IMG/VR virus record: IMGVR_UViG_3300044608_001826
Span: 1-64,000 of that record
DNA: 64,000 bases
Direction: 5' to 3' (one strand)
Source of the DNA: a virus
Under the pieces are notes generated by a model that searched no databases, was not told the origin of the DNA, and saw nothing but the letters and a program-made list of their open reading frames with translations. Below are positions 25,885 to 49,312 of this stretch, piece after piece (the stretch's first letter is position 1; each line of letters starts with the position of its first letter). The position numbers and the translations under genes were made by a program.

Positions 25885-27435
25885 TCAGTTTAAACATTTC
25901 TGAATAACATCAATGGTTTTATCTGCGTCGTTAATGTCTACACTGTAAACATCATCGCTGAAGGATCTGCACACGGGAGGTACTGTTGTATTTATACACA
26001 CAGTGCTCCATTGAACTCCTTTGTTCTTTTTAAGATCATTGAGTTCTTTTATTCTACTCGTGTTGACTTCGCTTTCGCCGTCCGTAATCAAGAGGATGTC
26101 GGATTTTTCTAACAGGGTAGGCGACCTCAGAGCGTGGATAAGAACAGCGTTGAAGGATGTGCCGCCCCCAAGAGTCCACGTCCCAACAAAGTTTAAAAGC
26201 TCTGTATTCTTCTTGTCGTCTCCTTTTAGTTGAACTGATCCGTTTATCTGGGTGTCGAAGAGATGAATCTCAACGTCTCTCTTGTTTTTAGCTGCTTCCT
26301 CCGCAACCATGAACGCGATTGCTTTGCTCCACAGTTCCGGTTGACCGGACATAGAGCCTGATGTATCGATGTAAACGATTATCGGACCTTTGCCGATATC
26401 CTTTCTATGTGCTGTGTAGTCTTTAGTAAGCAAGCTCTTCTGAGTGTACCTGAGAGCGAACAAAGCTTTACCTTCCGGACTTGAAGCCAGTGCCATCTCT
26501 GCTGGGAATGCTCGAACAATATCGTCACTAAAAGAGACTCCCTTAATCTCTTCGTAAGTTGAAGCTATTTTCTTAGCTCGCTTACGCTCCTGCCAGATCC
26601 TGCGAAGAGCTCCAAGCTTTTCGACTAGCTTGCGAAGCTCGCGATTCGAGCGCAGTTTTTTAGCCAGCTCCAGCTTCTCCTGAAGGTTTGTCGTGTGCTT
26701 CCCTTTTCCCGGAGTGTCACCGTGGAGAGCACTGAGAGCCTCCGAAATATCGTCATTAGCCTGCAGAGCTCGGTCAACAACCTTCTGCGTTTTACTCTGC
26801 ATAGTTGGCTGTAGCTCTTGTAAAGCTTCTAAGATTTTCTGTCCCAACTTCTTACCTTGTTGCCTCGCCTTCTCAGCTTCTTCTTTATCGCCAGCTGCAT
26901 TAGCTTCTGCGAATTTCTCTCTCAGTTTTTCGAGCTCGTCGCCAGATCCGGTGAGAAGCTTTACGTCAAACTTCGACTGCTCTATTGCTTCTTCGATTAC
27001 TTTCGATAACTCGTTCAGGATGTTGATGGCATTATTACCTGCATTAAATTGATTCCCAACACTGCGCTCAAGCAAAGCTGGCCATGCTGCTGCCTGAGAG
27101 AGGTGAGCCATTATGGAGTACCACAAGGAATTCTCCGGCTTGTACCCTTGCGGGACAGCGCTGGTGTCACCATCACAGAAAGCCCTGAAGTAGTCTTCGA
27201 ATGCACTTTCTGTGACTAACCACGCAACATCATCTGCGTTATAAAGACGTTCAAATAACTCTTTGCCGAAGCGTGAGAGTTGTTTGATGTTGTATTGCTC
27301 TACAAGGTAGGTGATCGAAGGACGCGAATCCCTGATGAAGTCGTCCCATAAGAAGTCCGCAAGGGCGGAGCAAGCGAGTGTGAGAGGCTGTTCGTTTACA
27401 AGGCGGACAAATTCAGTCTGTTTGTCTTGTGTCAT
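25885..27435 (-). CDS. VWA-domain protein (ViaA/CoxE-like)
   Basis: 516 residues. N-terminal 300 residues are helical, with a charged linker (FAEANAAGDKEEAEKARQQG) and ELREHL-like helices. The C-terminal part is a von Willebrand A domain with an intact MIDAS: IVYIDTSGSMSG (Asp357, Ser359, Ser361), a WTLGGGTSF turn and ILLITDGESE. This helical-plus-VWA arrangement is that of ViaA/CoxE-type partners of MoxR AAA+ ATPases, and the MoxR gene lies one small gene upstream. In cellular pairs (RavA-ViaA, CbbQ-CbbO) the couple remodels or activates protein complexes. The phage target is unknown. Confidence 0.9.
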   Translation of the reverse strand: MTQDKQTEFVRLVNEQPLTLACSALADFLWDDFIRDSRPSITYLVEQYNIKQLSRFGKELFERLYNADDVAWLVTESAFEDYFRAFCDGDTSAVPQGYKPENSLWYSIMAHLSQAAAWPALLERSVGNQFNAGNNAINILNELSKVIEEAIEQSKFDVKLLTGSGDELEKLREKFAEANAAGDKEEAEKARQQGKKLGQKILEALQELQPTMQSKTQKVVDRALQANDDISEALSALHGDTPGKGKHTTNLQEKLELAKKLRSNRELRKLVEKLGALRRIWQERKRAKKIASTYEEIKGVSFSDDIVRAFPAEMALASSPEGKALFALRYTQKSLLTKDYTAHRKDIGKGPIIVYIDTSGSMSGQPELWSKAIAFMVAEEAAKNKRDVEIHLFDTQINGSVQLKGDDKKNTELLNFVGTWTLGGGTSFNAVLIHALRSPTLLEKSDILLITDGESEVNTSRIKELNDLKKNKGVQWSTVCINTTVPPVCRSFSDDVYSVDINDADKTIDVIQKCLN

Positions 27436-27595
27436 TTTGTTGCAGGAGTTTAAGTAATTGAACTTTTTTCTCCTCTACCAAGTGAGCAGAGGATACTGTA
27501 GCAGTTAACCCAGATACGTGCTGCACCTTGTAGCAATCGTTGCCGCACGTATCTACGTAGAAGTTTACATCAAACTCTGTATCGTCTATGATCAC
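27413..27595 (-). CDS. Small linker gene in the MoxR-VWA operon (60 aa)
   Basis: 60 residues from a GTG that overlaps the MoxR stop (GTGA) and overlapping the VWA start by 23 bases. It has FDVNFYVDTCGNDCYKVQHV followed by a helix (EEKKVQLLKLLQQ). The two cysteines four apart could be structural. The overlaps at both ends argue it is a real member translated in a 1:1:1 series with MoxR and VWA. Confidence 0.6.
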   Translation of the reverse strand: MIIDDTEFDVNFYVDTCGNDCYKVQHVSGLTATVSSAHLVEEKKVQLLKLLQQNDTRQTD

Positions 27596-28779
27596 CCGCT
27601 GAGCTCACTAATCTCTTTCGCTAGTGTATCGCAGTTATTCTCTAAAGCTTGAATAAGCTTCATCCCATTGGATCGTGAGGTTATCGACATCCTGTAACGG
27701 CTGCTATCGATAATTTCATTGACTTTCTCTTTAACTGTCACCATATCCTTGTAGTACTTTTTCAAGAGCCCGACAAACTCATTGAGGTCACCTAAGCCCT
27801 TTCCCTGATACCTGTGGGAGTACGTAGTGAACTCCGACATGATCCCTGCAGCAGCTCGCTTAGCGTCGCTGAAAATCTTATCTGCTGTCGGGATTTCTTG
27901 ATCTAAGACTTCCTTAATAACACCTTGATCCTCTTCGTTTTGATAAACAATATGGACAAGGCTGTCGTGCATGTGCTCTGCATACAGTTCATCGTCGCCT
28001 TGAACTACTGCCCACGCTTTGAGGAACTTGAGAATCTGCACTCGCCGCCTGTCAGAAACAGTGATGTTTCTGCTGGCAAGAAGGTCCCATACTGAGCTGT
28101 ACTTAGTGAGGAACTCTTCCCCAACCTGAACAGAGGCTACATGTTCTTGAAGTTCCTTTAACTCTGACAGAGTTAGGCAATCCGTAACGGTAGGGCGCTG
28201 CGTGATACCCAAAGCCCATTCGTCTAGCTTTCGCTTTGATACGGGCTTCCTAAGCAGATTCACCGTGGGGCGGAACAGGAAACGATCCGCGAAAGCCTGC
28301 AAGGATTCCTCCTCCGGCCAGCTATTCGTCGCGGCGATTATTGACTCAATCGGCGTGGTGATTACGTCCTTGCCGTTATTGAAAGTTCGCTCATTAAGGA
28401 GAGTCAAGAGAGAGTTCAGGATTGCCGAGCTACCACGGAACAGCTCGTCTAGAAAAGCAATATGTGCGCTAGGCAAATAGCCATCCACATCACGAGTGTA
28501 CTCATCGTTAAGCAGTTTCGTTACTGCTACTGGACCGAAAACCTCTGAGGGATCTGTTGTTGGTGTTAGAAGATAGCCGAAGTAGTTAGCGTCTACGATA
28601 CCGTTACACACGCTTCGTACTAAGTCAGACTTACCTGTACCAGGAACCCCCAGAAGAAATGCGTTCTGTTTGCTAAGGATGCACGCAAGCAGCCCATCGA
28701 TAACATGTTCCCGTTCTAGGGTCGCTGCGTTTAGATCGCTCCGAAAGTTTTGAAGTTTGGCGAAGAGAGTGTCGTTCAT
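27592..28779 (-). CDS. MoxR-family AAA+ ATPase (RavA-like)
   Basis: 395 residues from ATG 28779 (MNDTLFAKLQ); a TTG eight codons upstream is also possible. AAA+ motifs: Walker A FLLGVPGTGKSDLV (44-51), Walker B IAFLDELFRG (Asp111-Glu112), the MoxR insert (LNSLLTLLNERTFNNG), sensor 1 ATNSWPEE and a lid domain to about 290. The rest is a helical extension (VKEKVNEIIDSSRYRM). MoxR ATPases act as chaperones with VWA partners and form hexamers. The VWA partner is directly downstream, so this is a complete MoxR-VWA pair in a phage. Confidence 0.92.
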   Translation of the reverse strand: MNDTLFAKLQNFRSDLNAATLEREHVIDGLLACILSKQNAFLLGVPGTGKSDLVRSVCNGIVDANYFGYLLTPTTDPSEVFGPVAVTKLLNDEYTRDVDGYLPSAHIAFLDELFRGSSAILNSLLTLLNERTFNNGKDVITTPIESIIAATNSWPEEESLQAFADRFLFRPTVNLLRKPVSKRKLDEWALGITQRPTVTDCLTLSELKELQEHVASVQVGEEFLTKYSSVWDLLASRNITVSDRRRVQILKFLKAWAVVQGDDELYAEHMHDSLVHIVYQNEEDQGVIKEVLDQEIPTADKIFSDAKRAAAGIMSEFTTYSHRYQGKGLGDLNEFVGLLKKYYKDMVTVKEKVNEIIDSSRYRMSITSRSNGMKLIQALENNCDTLAKEISELSG

Positions 28780-28786
28780 TGGAAGG

Positions 28787-29005
28787 TCAGAAGGAGGATT
28801 CAAGAAGGGAATTTTTTCGTGGGAAAGGGACTGTTTCCTCAGTGATCCAGCACTGAGTGTTTAAGTAGCCGCTCACAGTTTTAAGTCTGTTAGTTGCGGT
28901 ATCAAAACTCGCAAACTGAACGGCTTTATCTACGGCGTACGTATACTTTTCTACGTCTTGTAGAAAACCTTTCTCGGATTTGATGACGAAAACAGTGCGG
29001 TCCAT
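28787..29005 (-). CDS. Small MoxR-VWA operon protein (72 aa)
   Basis: 72 residues, start overlaps the upstream stop (TAATG). Looks like a small alpha/beta fold: VFVIKSEKGFL, YAVDKAVQFASFDTATNRL, CWITEE. No motif is diagnostic. It ends 8 bases before the MoxR ATG. Always-overlapping spacing suggests stoichiometric production with MoxR. Confidence 0.55.
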   Translation of the reverse strand: MDRTVFVIKSEKGFLQDVEKYTYAVDKAVQFASFDTATNRLKTVSGYLNTQCWITEETVPFPRKNSLLESSF

Positions 29006-43480: not shown

Positions 43481-43556
43481 GCGCATCTAGCAATCTGGTG
43501 AATGCAGTCGACTCATAATCGACCTTAGGTGAGTTCAATTCTCACGATGCGCACCA
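43481..43556 (+). tRNA. tRNA with CAU anticodon (Met/Ile2 type)
   Basis: 76 bases ending in an encoded CCA. Acceptor GCGCATC/GATGCGC, D-stem GCA/TGC, anticodon stem GTCGA/TCGAC with loop CTCATAA (anticodon CAT) and T-arm GTGAG TTCAATT CTCAC all pair. The acceptor G1-C72 pair excludes an initiator tRNA. It is an elongator Met or the lysidine-modified Ile(AUA) tRNA. Confidence 0.92.
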
Positions 43557-43557
43557 A

Positions 43558-43630
43558 GGCCGTGTAGCCCAACGGCAGAGGCAAGCGACTTAAAATCGCT
43601 CAAGTGTGAGTTCGAATCTCACCACGGCTA
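43558..43630 (+). tRNA. tRNA-Leu(UAA), short variable arm
   Basis: 73 bases: acceptor GGCCGTG/CACGGCT (G-U at the end), D-stem GCC/GGC, anticodon stem AGCGA/TCGCT with loop CTTAAAA (anticodon TAA), variable region of only five bases (CAAGT) and T-arm GTGAG TTCGAAT CTCAC. It reads UUA. Normal leucine tRNAs have a long extra stem here, so this one is structurally class I. No CCA is encoded. It starts one base after the CAU tRNA. Confidence 0.85.
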
Positions 43631-43646
43631 CTCACATCTATTTGTG

Positions 43647-44124: not shown

Positions 44125-44514
44125 ATGAGACAGAAACCCCTTGAGCCCCCACTTGAGCTCGTTCAGCAGTGGGGAAACTCCAGCCAAGCTTGGTTTGAGG
44201 AATCAAATGATCACTGGGACTACGAGCAGCACATCGCAAATCTCGCGGCTAAATGGGGCGCTGATCAAGAACTGACAGCGTGTTGCGACTTTGCTCTAAC
44301 AGCGAAAGTATGTGGGACTCAGTTTCAACGCCAGATGCTGGTTCGTCAGTTAAAGGAGAGGCGTAGGCCAGTTGAGGAGAGTATTAAGGAGAAAGCTTTT
44401 GACGCGCTGTACACCATAGCCGTGGGGGATAAAGAAGCTCGATGGAACTTTAAAGAAATTGAGACTATTCGGCAGGCGCTAGAGTTACTTCCTAACGATT
44501 CGCGGAGAGTGTGA
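44125..44514 (+). CDS. Paralogue family A member 1 (PPxELVQQW protein)
   Basis: 129 residues. PLEPPLELVQQW at the N-terminus, then ANLAAKWGADQELTACCDFAL and a charged helix (LKERRRPVEESIKEKAFDAL). The block 'PP.ELV.QW....(A/T)A(A/K)WGA.QEL..C' defines a family of about 70-135 residues that recurs at 44514, 44743, 47122 and 48796. The family is characteristic of Synechococcus and its phages and has no known function. The end overlaps the next start. Confidence 0.65.
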   Translation: MRQKPLEPPLELVQQWGNSSQAWFEESNDHWDYEQHIANLAAKWGADQELTACCDFALTAKVCGTQFQRQMLVRQLKERRRPVEESIKEKAFDALYTIAVGDKEARWNFKEIETIRQALELLPNDSRRV

Positions 44515-44723
44515 TGACACAGCAGCACCCCACCAGCATTCCGCCGGAGCTGGTGCGCCAGTGGCTGTTGGAGTATTACGGTGGCGATCTTGGTGAAGTG
44601 AGCCTTGAGGAGATGTACCTTGCTAGGTGTGCCGCTCAATGGGGTTACGAGCAGCACGAAAGGGAGCTGCTCGACGCTATGCACGCCGTAGTCCCGCAGC
44701 CTTACGAACCAAAAGCTGAGTAA
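44514..44723 (+). CDS. Paralogue family A member 2, short
   Basis: 69 residues. MTQQHPTSIPPELVRQWLLE, then YLARCAAQWGYEQHERELLD. It holds the family head (I-PPELV-QW) and the AAQWG block but lacks the C-terminal half present in the other members, so it may be truncated or minimal. The start TGATG overlaps the upstream stop. Confidence 0.6.
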   Translation: MTQQHPTSIPPELVRQWLLEYYGGDLGEVSLEEMYLARCAAQWGYEQHERELLDAMHAVVPQPYEPKAE

Positions 44724-44746
44724 CCATTACCACTAATCACCCATGA
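44724..44746 (+). repeat. Shared leader block, copy 1
   Basis: CCACTAATCACCCATGACA, ending with the start codon of the family A gene at 44743. Near-identical copies sit at 45318-45344 and 47101-47126. Confidence 0.7.
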
Positions 44747-45147
44747 CACAAGAACACCCCATCAACCCACCGCCGGAGCTGGTGAAGCAGTGGCGAGAGC
44801 AGGCCCCGCGTTGCCGCGACGGTGGCATTGCCCGCGAAGACTGGCTGATGACCAGCGCCGCCCGATGGGGCGCCGAGCAAGAGCTGGAGGCGTGCTGTGA
44901 GTTTCTTGGTACAAACAAGGAGTGGAACACAGTCGGACTTCTACGTGAACTCCGCGCCGCCCGTCGCCCCAAGCCGTCGAGCTTGAAAGGACGGATAGCT
45001 GCAGAGATCGAAAACGGGACTGCCTGCGACAGGGAGTCAGAGCGAATTACTCATGACGTTATCCGTGAGGTGGCAGCGTGGATTGATTATTTGGGATACC
45101 CCTCGTGCGCTGCTGAACTCAGAAAAGAACTCCCTCAGTCTCGTTGA
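44743..45147 (+). CDS. Paralogue family A member 3, fused to a family C tail
   Basis: 134 residues. Front: HPINPPPELVKQWREQAPRC and SAARWGAEQELEACCEFLG. The tail (SLKGRIAAEIENGT, THDVIREVAAWIDYLGYPSC) matches the end of the gene at 47474 (SLVKRVALAIS, AAIREVAMWMREN, GYTAAC). The gene therefore looks like a family A front joined to a family C back. The upstream 19 bases are the shared leader block. Confidence 0.65.
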   Translation: MTQEHPINPPPELVKQWREQAPRCRDGGIAREDWLMTSAARWGAEQELEACCEFLGTNKEWNTVGLLRELRAARRPKPSSLKGRIAAEIENGTACDRESERITHDVIREVAAWIDYLGYPSCAAELRKELPQSR

Positions 45148-45173
45148 GAGCCCTCGTAGCGGAACCCACTTCC

Positions 45174-45317
45174 ATGTCTGATAAGGAAAAACTAATTTAC
45201 TTCATCGAGCAGCTACGTGCAGACCCCGATGACCACAAAGATTATGAAAACACTTACGAAGATGGATGGATTGACGCCTGCAACGCCATTTTGAACCAGC
45301 TTCACCAGCCCTCATAG
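45174..45317 (+). CDS. Hypothetical acidic protein (47 aa)
   Basis: 47 residues starting MSDKEKLIYFIEQLRADPDD. One amphipathic helix then ENTYEDGWIDACNAILNQL, a second helix. Short and acidic, in the middle of the paralogue array. The stop is 19 bases before the next member of the array. Confidence 0.5.
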   Translation: MSDKEKLIYFIEQLRADPDDHKDYENTYEDGWIDACNAILNQLHQPS

Positions 45318-45340
45318 TCGCTTCCACTAATCACCCATGA
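45318..45340 (+). repeat. Shared leader block, copy 2
   Basis: CCACTAATCACCCATGACA, this time before a gene of a different family (45337), showing that the block is linked to position rather than to the family A coding sequence. Confidence 0.7.
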
Positions 45341-45651
45341 CATCAACACCAGATCTGACGACTGAAAACGACATCGCCTATGCCTTGTTTGATTCTGACG
45401 GGCAACTCCGGCCTGCTGCACGTCAGGTTTTGACCTCCTGCGGTTTCGTACCACCCGCCCCTGTTCCTATGAGCGAGCGTTTGCCGGGACCGGAGGATTG
45501 CGATGCAGAAGGCCGATGCTTTGTCTGGGACTGGCTAGCTACAGAGTGGAAGTTCCTGGAAAGGAGCGTATTTCAACAGGGTTGGGAAAGTGCTTACTGG
45601 CTCCCCCACCACGCGTTGCCGGTGCCGCAGCAGGAGGCCGACCGTGGCTGA
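45337..45651 (+). CDS. DUF551-like small protein (104 aa)
   Basis: 104 residues. N-terminal MTSTPDLTTENDIAYALFDS; the core PVPMSERLPGPEDCDAEGRC, FVWDWLATEWKFLE and AYWLPHHALPVP. The 'MSERLPGPEDCD.EGRC..W......W....W..PHHALPVP' string is common in picocyanobacterial and cyanophage proteins of the DUF551-like group, with no known activity. Trp- and Cys-rich, probably a compact beta fold. Ends 8 bases into the next gene. Confidence 0.65.
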   Translation: MTSTPDLTTENDIAYALFDSDGQLRPAARQVLTSCGFVPPAPVPMSERLPGPEDCDAEGRCFVWDWLATEWKFLERSVFQQGWESAYWLPHHALPVPQQEADRG

Positions 45652-45886
45652 CCTCTCCTCCGCCGCGCAGGCAGTGGTCTGGGAATTCAACCAAGCAGCC
45701 AGCGGCAAGCCTGATGACTGGCACTACCTGCCTGCTATCGCCGCCGCCCTGCGAGCTGCTGCAGATCAAGTGGTGCCGGATGAGCCGCTTTACGGGGGTG
45801 ATCAGCGCTGGATGTTTGAGCGCGATGCCCGTCAGGCTTGTCGCAAGAAACTCCTCGCAATCGCTGATGAGCTTGAAGCCCAGTAG
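45644..45886 (+). CDS. Paralogue family B member 1 (80 aa)
   Basis: 80 residues from GTG, preceded by a strong CAGGAGG site. DLSSAAQAVVWEFNQAASG, AAALRAAADQVVPDEPLYGG, CRKKLLAIADELEAQ. The 'LS.AAQAV......AAALRAAADQVV....LLAIADELE' scheme recurs at 48363 and 49115. All-helical, no cysteine or metal motif. Its start overlaps the upstream gene. Confidence 0.65.
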   Translation: MADLSSAAQAVVWEFNQAASGKPDDWHYLPAIAAALRAAADQVVPDEPLYGGDQRWMFERDARQACRKKLLAIADELEAQ

Positions 45887-45962
45887 TCACCTTCGCTAAA
45901 ATGCTTAGCGATAGAACCTGGACCTCTGTTACATCCCCGAGGCGTATTACGTTCAGGTCATC

Positions 45963-46040
45963 CACCCGGTCCGAGCTAATTGGATAGGACGGTCACCTGC
46001 CGCTGCAGGGACGGTGCGGGTTCGAATCCCGTCCGGGTGC
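45963..46040 (+). tRNA. tRNA-like element with atypical D and anticodon arms
   Basis: A seven-bp acceptor (CACCCGG with CCGGGTG) and a T-arm (GCGGG TTCGAAT CCCGT) are canonical. The central region instead forms a long hairpin (GTC.CCTGC/GCAGG.GAC) with only a four- to six-base loop, and the D-arm cannot be drawn normally. No anticodon can be assigned safely. It could be a pseudo-tRNA or a tRNA-like RNA. Confidence 0.4.
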
Positions 46041-46127
46041 TCAAATTGTGAAGAAGGTACCACACGGTAGTTTTTCTGGTACCATGGTGCGGCGGAACAA
46101 GCCGCTAAGGCCAATTCACTTAGTTAC

Positions 46128-46289
46128 ATGTCCAAATCTACTGAAACCAAAAAGCAAGCCGCCAAAGCTCTGATCGAGCTCGTGGTAGCTGCATCAAGCA
46201 CCACCACTTTTGAAGATTGCTTCGATTTTATGGACCGTCGCATCGAGCAAGCCGCTGCCGAAGTGATGGAGGCGATTTTCGATGACTGA
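46128..46289 (+). CDS. Hypothetical helical protein (53 aa)
   Basis: 53 residues: MSKSTETKKQAAKALIELVV, then FEDCFDFMDRRIEQAAAEV. Two helices; a TTAGTTAC element lies just before the ATG. A 19-residue open frame (46282-46341) overlaps its end and is not annotated separately. No family recognised. Confidence 0.5.
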   Translation: MSKSTETKKQAAKALIELVVAASSTTTFEDCFDFMDRRIEQAAAEVMEAIFDD

Positions 46290-46327
46290 TCTAGAGATCA
46301 TCGAACTTAACACTAAGGAAACAACTC

Positions 46328-46543
46328 ATGAGGCTCCTTAGTCAAAACGTCGACTGGAAGGATTACCCCGAGTCTTTCTGGGACCACGGTGCTCAGTATG
46401 TAATCAGCCAAGGGTACGATGTTGATCTTGACGTCGACTCCTTAATGATCTTGCTGTGGCGCATGGATCAGCGAATAACCCAGTTGGAGACAGCGATTAG
46501 CGCGTGTAATTGCGACAAAACCTCTACATCTGCAGACAAATGA
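46328..46543 (+). CDS. Hypothetical protein (71 aa)
   Basis: 71 residues: MRLLSQNVDWKDYPESFWDH, then a helix (VDSLMILLWRMDQRITQLET) and AISACNCDKTSTSADK. Acidic-aromatic N-terminus. The stop overlaps the next start (ATGA). Unknown. Confidence 0.5.
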   Translation: MRLLSQNVDWKDYPESFWDHGAQYVISQGYDVDLDVDSLMILLWRMDQRITQLETAISACNCDKTSTSADK

Positions 46544-46827
46544 CGTGTAATTGTGACACCGCCCGCAGCCTGATAAACCGCCTGGCGGATTCCCTTCAGG
46601 AGTTCATCGACTACGAACCCGTGGGGTACGTCGAGTTCGAACAGGATTTGATCGACGAAGCCCGTGAGTTTGTTAAAGGTACAGAACCTCCTGAGCAAAT
46701 AAGCGAGGAGGAAAATGAGAGACGATTTAAAGCGTGTATGGAGCAGATACGCAGTCTCACCCGCGAAAATTTTGTAGAACTGATGGGTGAGGAATTTCTT
46801 GAGGAGTTTCGGCGTGTTTCCCATTAA
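46540..46827 (+). CDS. Hypothetical acidic protein (95 aa)
   Basis: 95 residues from ATG 46540 (MTCNCDTARSLINRLADSL). Helical and strongly acidic (YVEFEQDLIDEAREFVKG; PPEQISEEENERRFKACMEQI). Two neighbouring cysteines at the start (CNC). Possibly a small metal-binding or dimerising protein. Not recognised. Confidence 0.5.
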   Translation: MTCNCDTARSLINRLADSLQEFIDYEPVGYVEFEQDLIDEAREFVKGTEPPEQISEEENERRFKACMEQIRSLTRENFVELMGEEFLEEFRRVSH

Positions 46828-46865
46828 TTTATAGATACTCAGTAAGCCTGATTACTCTTTTTCTC

Positions 46866-47099
46866 ATGGAACCCAGCAAAAAAGTTTTTCTGGTCACTCT
46901 CCAATATCGTGCTTATGTTTTGGCCGAGGATGACTACGACGCTGAGGATCTGGCTCACTCTATTGCCAAGGAAGAGCGCCCCGTGGTTGAAGTCGAAGAA
47001 GTTCGATCAAACGTTCTGTCGTGGCCGCTGCACGCTTGCGTCTACCACGCGGAACAACTGGATCGCGACATTACAGTTCACGATATTTTTCCCGCGTAG
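46866..47099 (+). CDS. Hypothetical protein (77 aa)
   Basis: 77 residues: KVFLVTLQYRAYVLAEDDYD, then AEDLAHSIAKEERPVVEVEE. A beta-strand then helix with an 'EVEEVR..VLSWPLH' second strand is the layout of small ferredoxin-like domains seen in other phage proteins of this size. Function unknown. Confidence 0.5.
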   Translation: MEPSKKVFLVTLQYRAYVLAEDDYDAEDLAHSIAKEERPVVEVEEVRSNVLSWPLHACVYHAEQLDRDITVHDIFPA

Positions 47100-47100
47100 T

Positions 47101-47126
47101 AGTCACGACCACTAATCACCCATGAC
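47101..47126 (+). repeat. Shared leader block, copy 3
   Basis: CGACCACTAATCACCCATGACACA, ending in the start of the family A gene at 47122. It matches copies 1 and 2 almost base for base across the region just upstream of ATG. Confidence 0.7.
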
Positions 47127-47481
47127 ACAACAACATTCCATCACCCCACCGCCGGAGCTAGTGCAGCAGTGGCTGGAAGAGCTGTACGGCGGCCCAGTTT
47201 CTGTGATTAGCCCATTTGATCAGCGCGTCCTTATAGCTGCCGCCCAATGGGGTGCAGACCGCCAACTTGAAGCAGACGCGCAGTGGTTAGACCAAAATTC
47301 CTTGGATGCGCCACATTTGACAATCACTCCGACTGGTAAGGGTTTGGTAGAAGCAATGCGCTCCAAGGCGCCGAGCTTGAAGGAGCAGGCGCTAGATCTT
47401 CTGGATAAAGCAGAGGATCCTTCTTGGGACATCAATGATTTTTCCATCATCCGCCGCGCATTGGAGCAACTCGATGACTGA
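47122..47481 (+). CDS. Paralogue family A member 4 (119 aa)
   Basis: 119 residues. HSITPPPELVQQWLEELYGG, AAQWGADRQLEADAQWLDQN, then KAPSLKEQALDLLDKAEDP and IIRRALEQLDD. It has the full four-block family A plan, including the helical 'SLKEQAL..L....RRALEQLDD' end. The stop overlaps the next start by 8 bases (ATGACTGA). Confidence 0.65.
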   Translation: MTQQHSITPPPELVQQWLEELYGGPVSVISPFDQRVLIAAAQWGADRQLEADAQWLDQNSLDAPHLTITPTGKGLVEAMRSKAPSLKEQALDLLDKAEDPSWDINDFSIIRRALEQLDD

Positions 47482-48611: not shown

Positions 48612-48799
48612 AACTCGAACACAAGCGAGCCCTCCGCTGCTTCATCCTTGAGAAACTCGAAGAGGTGACCTGTGTGGACCTTGCATACGTAGCCTCAGAT
48701 GCTAACTGCACCCCGTTTGAAATGGCTGAGCAGTTCGACATTGAGTTCGAACGAATCGCGAAACTATTCAACTACCCAAACTACTCCGACGACGAATGA
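48608..48799 (+). CDS. Hypothetical protein (63 aa)
   Basis: 63 residues: MKLEHKRALRCFILEKLEEV, then DLAYVASDANCTPFEMAEQF. A helix-turn-helix-like arrangement (LAYVASDANCTPFEMAEQFDIEF) is possible, of the type seen in small regulators. Not strong enough to name. Confidence 0.5.
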   Translation: MKLEHKRALRCFILEKLEEVTCVDLAYVASDANCTPFEMAEQFDIEFERIAKLFNYPNYSDDE

Positions 48800-49122
48800 C
48801 TGAGAACCACCCGATCACACCGCCGCCAGACAAAATCCACAACTGGCTCCAGTCAGAAAAGATTGGCTGCACCATCGAGCAAATTATTACTGCGGCTGCC
48901 CAATGGGGTGCCGACCAGGAGCTTTTGGCTTGTGGCAACTACCTCAAACAGTGCGCTGCATGGGAAGAAGAGGATGTAACCGAGTTCTATAACTATCGCC
49001 GCCCCAAGCCGCCGAGCTTGAAGGAGCAGGCGTTAAAGGCGTTACAAGCACTGCAACAGCGGACAACAGACCCCAACATCGTCGAACCACTTCGCCGCGC
49101 ACTGGAGCAGCTCGATGACTGA
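48796..49122 (+). CDS. Paralogue family A member 5 (108 aa)
   Basis: 108 residues. NHPITPPPDKIHNWLQSEKI, TAAAQWGADQELLACGNYLK, SLKEQALKALQALQQR, RRALEQLDD. The PPPELV block is altered to PPPDKIHNW; the other three blocks fit well. Preceded by an ATGA overlap rather than the leader block. Its stop overlaps the family B gene by 8 bases. Confidence 0.65.
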   Translation: MTENHPITPPPDKIHNWLQSEKIGCTIEQIITAAAQWGADQELLACGNYLKQCAAWEEEDVTEFYNYRRPKPPSLKEQALKALQALQQRTTDPNIVEPLRRALEQLDD

Positions 49123-49312
49123 ACTCTCTCCCGCCGCGCAGGCTGTACTGACCGCTTTTAGCAAGTACCCCTTGCACGGCGATCACATAGCCAACACCCT
49201 GATGCACGGGGCTCTTCCCGCTGCTTTGCGAGCTGCTGCAGATCAACTTGATCACCCCACTTCAGCTCACACGCTCTACGCTTTTGCTGACGAGCTCGAA
49301 GCCCAACAGTGA
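49115..49312 (+). CDS. Paralogue family B member 3, short (65 aa)
   Basis: 65 residues: MTELSPAAQAVLTAFSKYPL, then PAALRAAADQLDHPT and ADELEAQQ. Shorter than members 1 and 2 because the linker and part of the last helix are missing. Translational overlap with both neighbours. Confidence 0.6.
   Translation: MTELSPAAQAVLTAFSKYPLHGDHIANTLMHGALPAALRAAADQLDHPTSAHTLYAFADELEAQQ

Follow-up and report, generated by a model that had tools for sequence, protein, structure and literature searches.

The phage DNA analysed here (the window) comprises 64,000 nucleotides, positions 1 to 64,000 of the 87,475-base IMG/VR virus record IMGVR_UViG_3300044608_001826, and carries an array of small genes in which one short sequence, termed linker A, stands three times between the end of one gene and the start of the next. 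Arrays of this kind, hypervariable and made up of small accessory genes, are found in phages that infect Synechococcus-type cyanobacteria of fresh and estuarine waters. In related phages, the genes that flank the same linker differ and sequence identity changes at both linker edges, and near-identical genomes differ through the replacement of genes between such linkers. A protein family encoded behind the linker (family P, phrog_32006) is itself composed of three variable segments, which lie between constant anchors and reassort almost independently. These patterns are probably the product of homology-guided recombination at short constant linkers that are common to several unrelated cyanophage lineages.

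A constant linker from stop codon to start codon

The core of linker A is the 19-mer CCACTAATCACCCATGACA, which occurs in three perfect copies on the + strand of the window (44730-44748, 45324-45342, and 47109-47127) and nowhere else in it even at three mismatches; 100 dinucleotide shuffles of the window gave no match at the same tolerance. The ATG of the three copies lies at 44743, 45337, and 47122 and opens the open reading frames (ORFs) 44743-45147, 45337-45651, and 47122-47481. An initial annotation of the window had described a near-identical 19-base leader that precedes three genes and ends with the start codon. The leader is indeed constant, the copies being identical rather than near-identical, and the three gene starts were correctly placed; the start given for the first copy, 44724, is ~6 nt off, and the conserved block does not end at the start codon. 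The full unit of ~28 nt runs from the upstream stop codon through TCATTACCACTAATCACCC to ATGACA. The letters 5′ of CCACTAATCACCC in copies 1 to 3 are TAACCATTA, TAGTCGCTT, and TAGTCACGA, respectively, and conservation reaches the stop codon at −22 and ends there. The TAA or TAG at this 5′ edge is the stop of the preceding gene in copies 1 and 2 and directly follows that stop in copy 3.

Copy 1 (TAACCATTACCACTAATCACCCATGACA, 44721-44748, + strand) thus extends from the stop of gene 44514-44723 into the gene at 44743 as far as its second codon, and copy 2 (TAGTCGCTTCCACTAATCACCCATGACA, 45315-45342, + strand) from the stop of gene 45174-45317 to the start of the gene at 45337, its left half being of the type found with a second linker, linker B (TAGTCGCTTCCACTTCT). 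Copy 3 (TAGTCACGACCACTAATCACCCATGACA, 47100-47127, + strand) immediately follows the stop codon (47097-47099) that ends gene 46866-47099. The outer two of the three genes both match the phrog_32006 profile (44743-45147, + strand, 134 aa, E 1e-23; 47122-47481, + strand, 119 aa, E 9e-17), and the middle gene (MTSTPDLTTE..., 45337-45651, + strand) is of a different family, its protein matching no Pfam or PHROG entry. A reading of the linker as a designed three-frame stop (TAG, TAA, TGA) was rejected, linker B being without such stops.

Genes on either side of the linker

The exact 19-mer was found in 114 IMG/VR stretches, in every one of which its ATG opens an ORF; the same letters in reverse order had no match in IMG/VR. 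The 99 unique linker contexts represent 61 clusters of upstream genes and 55 clusters of downstream genes joined in many combinations, such that the downstream gene ITPSDELIGEW has seven different upstream partners and the upstream gene ending in KKHTA* five different downstream partners. Downstream proteins mostly start MTQQHPITPPPELVQQW (family P), with at least six other kinds of gene behind linker A (MTSTPDLTTE in the window and in locus L099, MTDQQKLEYLL, MTNEGYSKVPPP, MTQSLMATVYVV, MTRQQLVNCSTA, and an HNH-endonuclease-like gene in L017), and the genes 5′ of the linker are very diverse. In L099, the MTSTPDLTTE gene and the same linker are 94% identical to the window from −13 to 278 and stand behind an unrelated upstream gene. 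The block, therefore, is not tied to one gene type in relatives, as it precedes several families and follows many unrelated upstream genes.

Linkers are, moreover, composite. Their left halves track the upstream gene and their right halves the downstream gene, and hybrids of halves occur. The left half TAGTCGCTTC is found mostly behind genes ending in LEQLPDNE and TAGTCACCTT behind those ending in ELEAQ; the right half CACTAATCACCC precedes family P, and CACTTCT precedes the SELSPAAQAV family. The HNH-endonuclease-like gene of L017 starts with the linker followed by MTQQHPI, and a similar cassette in L002, behind a variant linker, occupies 603-1101 downstream of the linker ATG of that locus. 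Copies of the linker lie near both ends of the viral contigs L005/L008 and L053, which suggests that these contigs are terminally redundant or circular complete genomes.

Identity breakpoints and recent replacements

The edges of the linker coincide with the points at which related loci part. Among loci that have the downstream gene in common but differ in the upstream gene (66 pairs), identity is ~95% back to the stop at −22 and 25%, the level of chance, beyond it. Identity therefore does not continue far upstream, and simple tandem duplication of gene and leader followed by divergence is extremely improbable: several paralogous family P genes do lie within one array, but the middle gene of the window belongs to another family, the upstream sequence is unrelated beyond −22, and the downstream segments are not homologous between copies. 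In 38 pairs with the same upstream gene, identity holds across the linker and fades within the first 50 bases of the downstream gene; six pairs alike in the upstream gene but with downstream genes of different families lose identity at +6, just past ATGACA. Positions −22 to −14 are 61-100% identical while the flanks are at 25%, a conservation that is not an artefact of retrieval because those bases lie outside the search pattern.

Closely related genomes place replacements at the same edges. Over the 1,074 bases leading up to linker copy 1, the window and the locus of a sister phage, L082, are 98.8% identical, and past it they carry different genes over 4.3 and 2.4 kb, respectively. The last stretch common to both at copy 1 spans the entire linker, and identity is back to 98% for 2.8 kb from the gene-start joint CTCGATG(A/T)CTGAACTC at 49110 (CTCGATGACTGAACTC, 49110-49126, + strand), where the segment replaced in L082 ends on the right. 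The near-clonal loci L068 and L078 (100% identical over 4 kb) have their left breakpoint within the linker or the first codons and a right breakpoint that coincides precisely with the stop codon of a different linker, TAGTCACCTTCTTTAAA-ATG; across L068, L078, and L002, flanks are 95-100% identical and the genes between linkers are replaced. L072 and L018 (95-98% identical) differ between anchors A1 and A3 of family P and then a second time up to a TAGTCACCTTC linker. Some of the reassortment at linkers and anchors is very recent. Across 284 breakpoints bounding blocks at least 94% identical, 27% lie at most 20 nt from a listed linker or anchor motif, compared with 9% of positions 60-600 nt away and 4% of random positions, although the first figure is inflated by retrieval via the linker and the nearby control corrects for this only in part.

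Since the loci bearing linker A are all metagenome contigs, the joints might be assembly chimeras formed at short repeats. This is highly improbable: cross-family joints have only ~28 nt in common, which is below the k-mers usual in assembly, six junctions recur across two to four independent IMG datasets, and segment mosaicism of the same kind is present in the cultured phages S-CBS2, S-H1, and S-RIP1.

Family P as a three-segment mosaic

Proteins of family P have the layout A1-V1-A2-V2-A3-V3-tail, in which A denotes a constant anchor and V a variable segment. The 190 unique full-length proteins obtained from 237 sequences fall into 108 V1, 90 V2, and 123 V3 clusters that occur in 187 combinations. 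Pairs of V1 and V3 are indistinguishable from random (186 observed, 185.7 after shuffling), and adjacent segments are slightly linked (170 pairs observed vs. 184 shuffled, and 176 vs. 185). The anchors are conserved beyond their amino acids, with agreement at four-fold degenerate sites in 55%, 60%, and 74% of comparisons, against ~27% expected from codon usage. The linker thus belongs to a series of constant blocks, of which it is the one situated between genes. In the gene at 47122-47481 (+ strand), A1 (MTQQHSITPPPELVQQW, 47122-47172) directly follows the linker on its 3′ side, A2 (AAQWGADRQLEADAQW, consensus AAQWGADQELEACCEW) lies at 47239-47286, and A3 (RSKAPSLKEQAL, consensus LRAARRPKPPSLKEQAL) at 47362-47402. 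The AlphaFold model of its protein is all-helical and of fair confidence (mean predicted local distance difference test score 86, predicted template modelling score 0.60) and gave no significant fold match in the PDB or viral libraries; a Pfam search of the array proteins likewise returned no significant match. The cluster phrog_32006 was previously known only as a cluster of unknown function, and its segment structure is set out here.

Members of phrog_32006 are also present in cultured phages, of which S-CBS2 and S-RIP1 combine the segments in other ways. S-CBS2 has the region from A2 to the end in common with L101 (83% nucleotide identity), and not V1; S-RIP1 has only A3-V3 in common with L275 (89% nucleotide identity); and in the Synechococcus phage S-H1 (L203, 2750-3001) the constant N-terminus A1, MTEQHPITPPPEL, is fused to an unrelated protein.

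Distribution and source phage

The large terminases of phages bearing linker A include at least five that are mutually remote, and other genes of the window's lineage are present at only a minority of linker loci. Judged by the terminase, the nearest isolate to the window phage is Synechococcus phage S-EIV1 (52% identity), and the window phage carries phage polymerase, primase, endolysin, and ferredoxin genes. No linker-like sequence was found within the 22 kb of S-EIV1 inspected, and the stretch before its terminase has no homologues of the array genes tested. When the 15-mer CACTAATCACCCATG was scanned against cellular genome contigs, matches were merely scattered among unrelated bacteria and archaea, and a cellular source of the linker was rejected on this ground.

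The linker as a possible expression signal

The initial annotation had also considered a special translation leader and reported no typical ribosome site. The latter holds, since none of 76 family P genes behind linker A has a Shine-Dalgarno sequence, but it is ordinary in this phage: such a sequence precedes 13 of 52 large genes, compared with 12% of random positions, and because three quarters of the large genes also have none, its absence at the linker is unremarkable. The linker RNA is essentially unstructured (shuffle z-scores −1.3 to +1.9), and no promoter-like or terminator-like sites were found at the three window linkers; promoter, terminator, and RNA-structure readings were rejected for want of matching sites or fold. 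The linker may well be where ribosomes enter the downstream gene, as an unstructured region free of a Shine-Dalgarno sequence.

A functional expression leader, acting in translation initiation or as a regulatory RNA or protein site and held by selection before co-regulated genes with gene exchange as an incidental outcome, is a possible but less favoured explanation. Its position fixed at the start codon, the unstructured RNA without a Shine-Dalgarno sequence (as in initiation independent of one), and its presence before several families would fit, and the Start-Associated Sequences (SAS) of Cluster K mycobacteriophages (PMC3203893) are a precedent. This explanation is countered by the composite linkers whose halves travel with their neighbours, by intragenic constant anchors that behave likewise, by the prevalence of starts without a Shine-Dalgarno sequence in the window phage, and by the unrelated leaders that family P has in many phages, owing to which the block is evidently not needed by the family.

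Proposed mechanism of exchange

Homology-guided recombination would take place in a cell where two phages with linker-bearing arrays are replicating together. Their identical linkers and anchors would be paired by homologous recombination, of phage or host, or by single-strand annealing, and the DNA in between would be exchanged. Because the stop codon of the gene before and the start codon of the gene after both lie in the linker, the two reading frames would stay intact after a swap there, and such swaps would therefore survive selection, which would favour joints of this kind. The breakpoint positions, by sequence comparison, fit homologous recombination at the boundary. The only recombination-related proteins recognised in the window phage were a PD-(D/E)XK exonuclease and, by eye, an SSB-like protein, and phage Rad52-like recombinases are able to recombine short, diverged stretches (PMC3945230).

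Several observations weigh against this explanation. Exchange is deduced from the comparison of genomes, most of the loci compared were fetched via the linker itself, which in itself ensures that they share the linker core, and 73% of the 284 breakpoints do not lie at listed motifs. Cross-family swaps have only their ~28 nt in common, which is short for homologous recombination, and neither an annealing protein nor a RecA-like recombinase could be recognised in the window phage, including in a search beside the exonuclease. The same gene family has other leaders in other phages; at least 543 IMG/VR stretches encode family P, and among loci fetched by family, outside the linker set, other leaders predominate. 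Linker A thus belongs to a sub-pool, and family P does not require it.

The alternative raised with the initial annotation, a recombination site that swaps coding cassettes behind a constant start, is supported as regards the exchange, given that replacements between genomes with 95-100% identical flanks start at the block. Homology-guided exchange nevertheless fits better than a unique site, because no dedicated site-specific recombinase is indicated and breakpoints also fall at other linkers and at intragenic constant blocks. Site-specific recombination, in which a tyrosine recombinase or an integron-like system would insert cassettes at the linker, is accordingly very unlikely. Exchange does occur at a fixed short sequence, and a tyrosine integrase gene adjoins the array in L068, L078, and L002, which makes some array-bearing phages probably temperate; however, integrase homologues are present in only 12 of the 114 linker-A stretches, and none of 40 ORFs scanned in the window genome had a PHROG match named integrase. 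In integron cassette arrays the same palindromic site ends every cassette, whereas here the two ends of a cassette carry different linkers without visible inverted repeats, and intragenic anchors of unrelated sequence also serve as breakpoints. Gene conversion driven by array-borne HNH homing endonucleases that cut near linkers is likewise unlikely; the HNH-like cassettes described above stand directly behind linker A in L017 and behind a variant linker in L002, but homologues are found in only ~12 linker-A stretches and most linkers are unoccupied.

Other features of the array and the window

Further genes of the array, all on the + strand, display other leaders and joints. The family P gene at 44125-44514 is divergent, has a leader of another sequence (TTAATTTAACTTCTC), and is followed by a short family member with a different 3′ end (VVPQPYEPKAE, 44514-44723). 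A small gene (MSDKEKLIYFIEQL..., 45174-45317) stands behind a linker-B-like sequence, TAGCGGAACCCACTTCC, and resembles the MTDQQKLEYLLSKL genes found behind linker A in L038, L090, and L094. The S family gene (VADLSSAAQAV..., 45644-45886) has a GTG start that overlaps the preceding stop and is followed by the left half of linker C, TAGTCACCTTCGCTAA, and a further family P gene with another leader (48796-49122) terminates in a ATGACTGA joint. Genes for tRNA-Met and tRNA-Leu (43481-43631) lie directly 5′ of the array, and a tRNA-like sequence (CACCCGGTCCGAGC...GGTTCGAATCCCGTCCGGGTG, 45965-46042) without an ARAGORN call lies within it. Elsewhere, a MoxR-type ATPase adjoins a ViaA-like (VWA) protein on the − strand at 25885-28803, forming a RavA-ViaA-like pair, and a LAGLIDADG homing endonuclease match is located amid the structural genes of the window phage (L327:5105-5935, genome 69105-69935).

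Comparison with known systems

Short conserved sequences at module boundaries, known as boundary or linker sequences, have been described in lambdoid phages, where homologous exchange at them was proposed (PMC3029335). The cyanophage linker is similar in being a short conserved gene-boundary sequence in different phages at which exchange by homologous recombination is proposed, but differs as one precise stop-to-start unit that is repeated within a genome, is common to unrelated phage lineages, and is continued by intragenic constant blocks. The PeSL elements of T4-like phages (Arbiol 2010; Comeau 2014), as summarised in PMC4503421, consist of an early promoter and a stem-loop between accessory genes; they resemble the linker as conserved intergenic motifs between small accessory genes that mediate modular shuffling, whereas the linker has neither early promoter nor stem-loop and includes the start codon. 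The SAS, a 13-bp sequence (GGGATAGGAGCCC) with a Shine-Dalgarno core 3-7 nt 5′ of the start, is also a short asymmetric repeat just 5′ of the starts of several families and sometimes holds the upstream stop. The linker differs from it in sequence, in the missing Shine-Dalgarno core, and in its location at exchange breakpoints, the SAS not being tied to exchange in the excerpted account (PMC3203893). The linker therefore resembles boundary-sequence mosaicism and PeSL shuffling in its working and the SAS in its position, and it fails the defining features of PeSL and SAS. At the protein level, Smug et al. (2023; PMC10684548) measured shared fragments of at least 50 aa and found mosaicism mainly among proteins for receptor binding, lysis, and replication; family P shares with these the ongoing shuffling of protein pieces among phages, but is ~115 aa long, of unknown function, and built of three short segments that reassort almost freely.

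Implications for phage mosaicism

Most mosaic boundaries of phages show no boundary sequence, though homology-guided exchange has long been proposed (PMC3029335). Here, a boundary sequence is visible, repeated, common to lineages with unrelated terminases, and positioned at the breakpoints of very recent replacements, and the system permits a direct test of linker-guided against illegitimate recombination. A more speculative and less likely proposal is that linkers and anchors are an evolved, shared "assembly standard" of cyanophages, whose constant joints at the DNA level would let co-infecting and even unrelated phages recombine small host-interaction genes with an outcome comparable to the joining of antigen-receptor segments; a dedicated joining standard under selection is possible. 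Pieces of family P, a small protein, reassort unusually freely, which suggests that a phage function of unknown nature is under strong diversifying selection.

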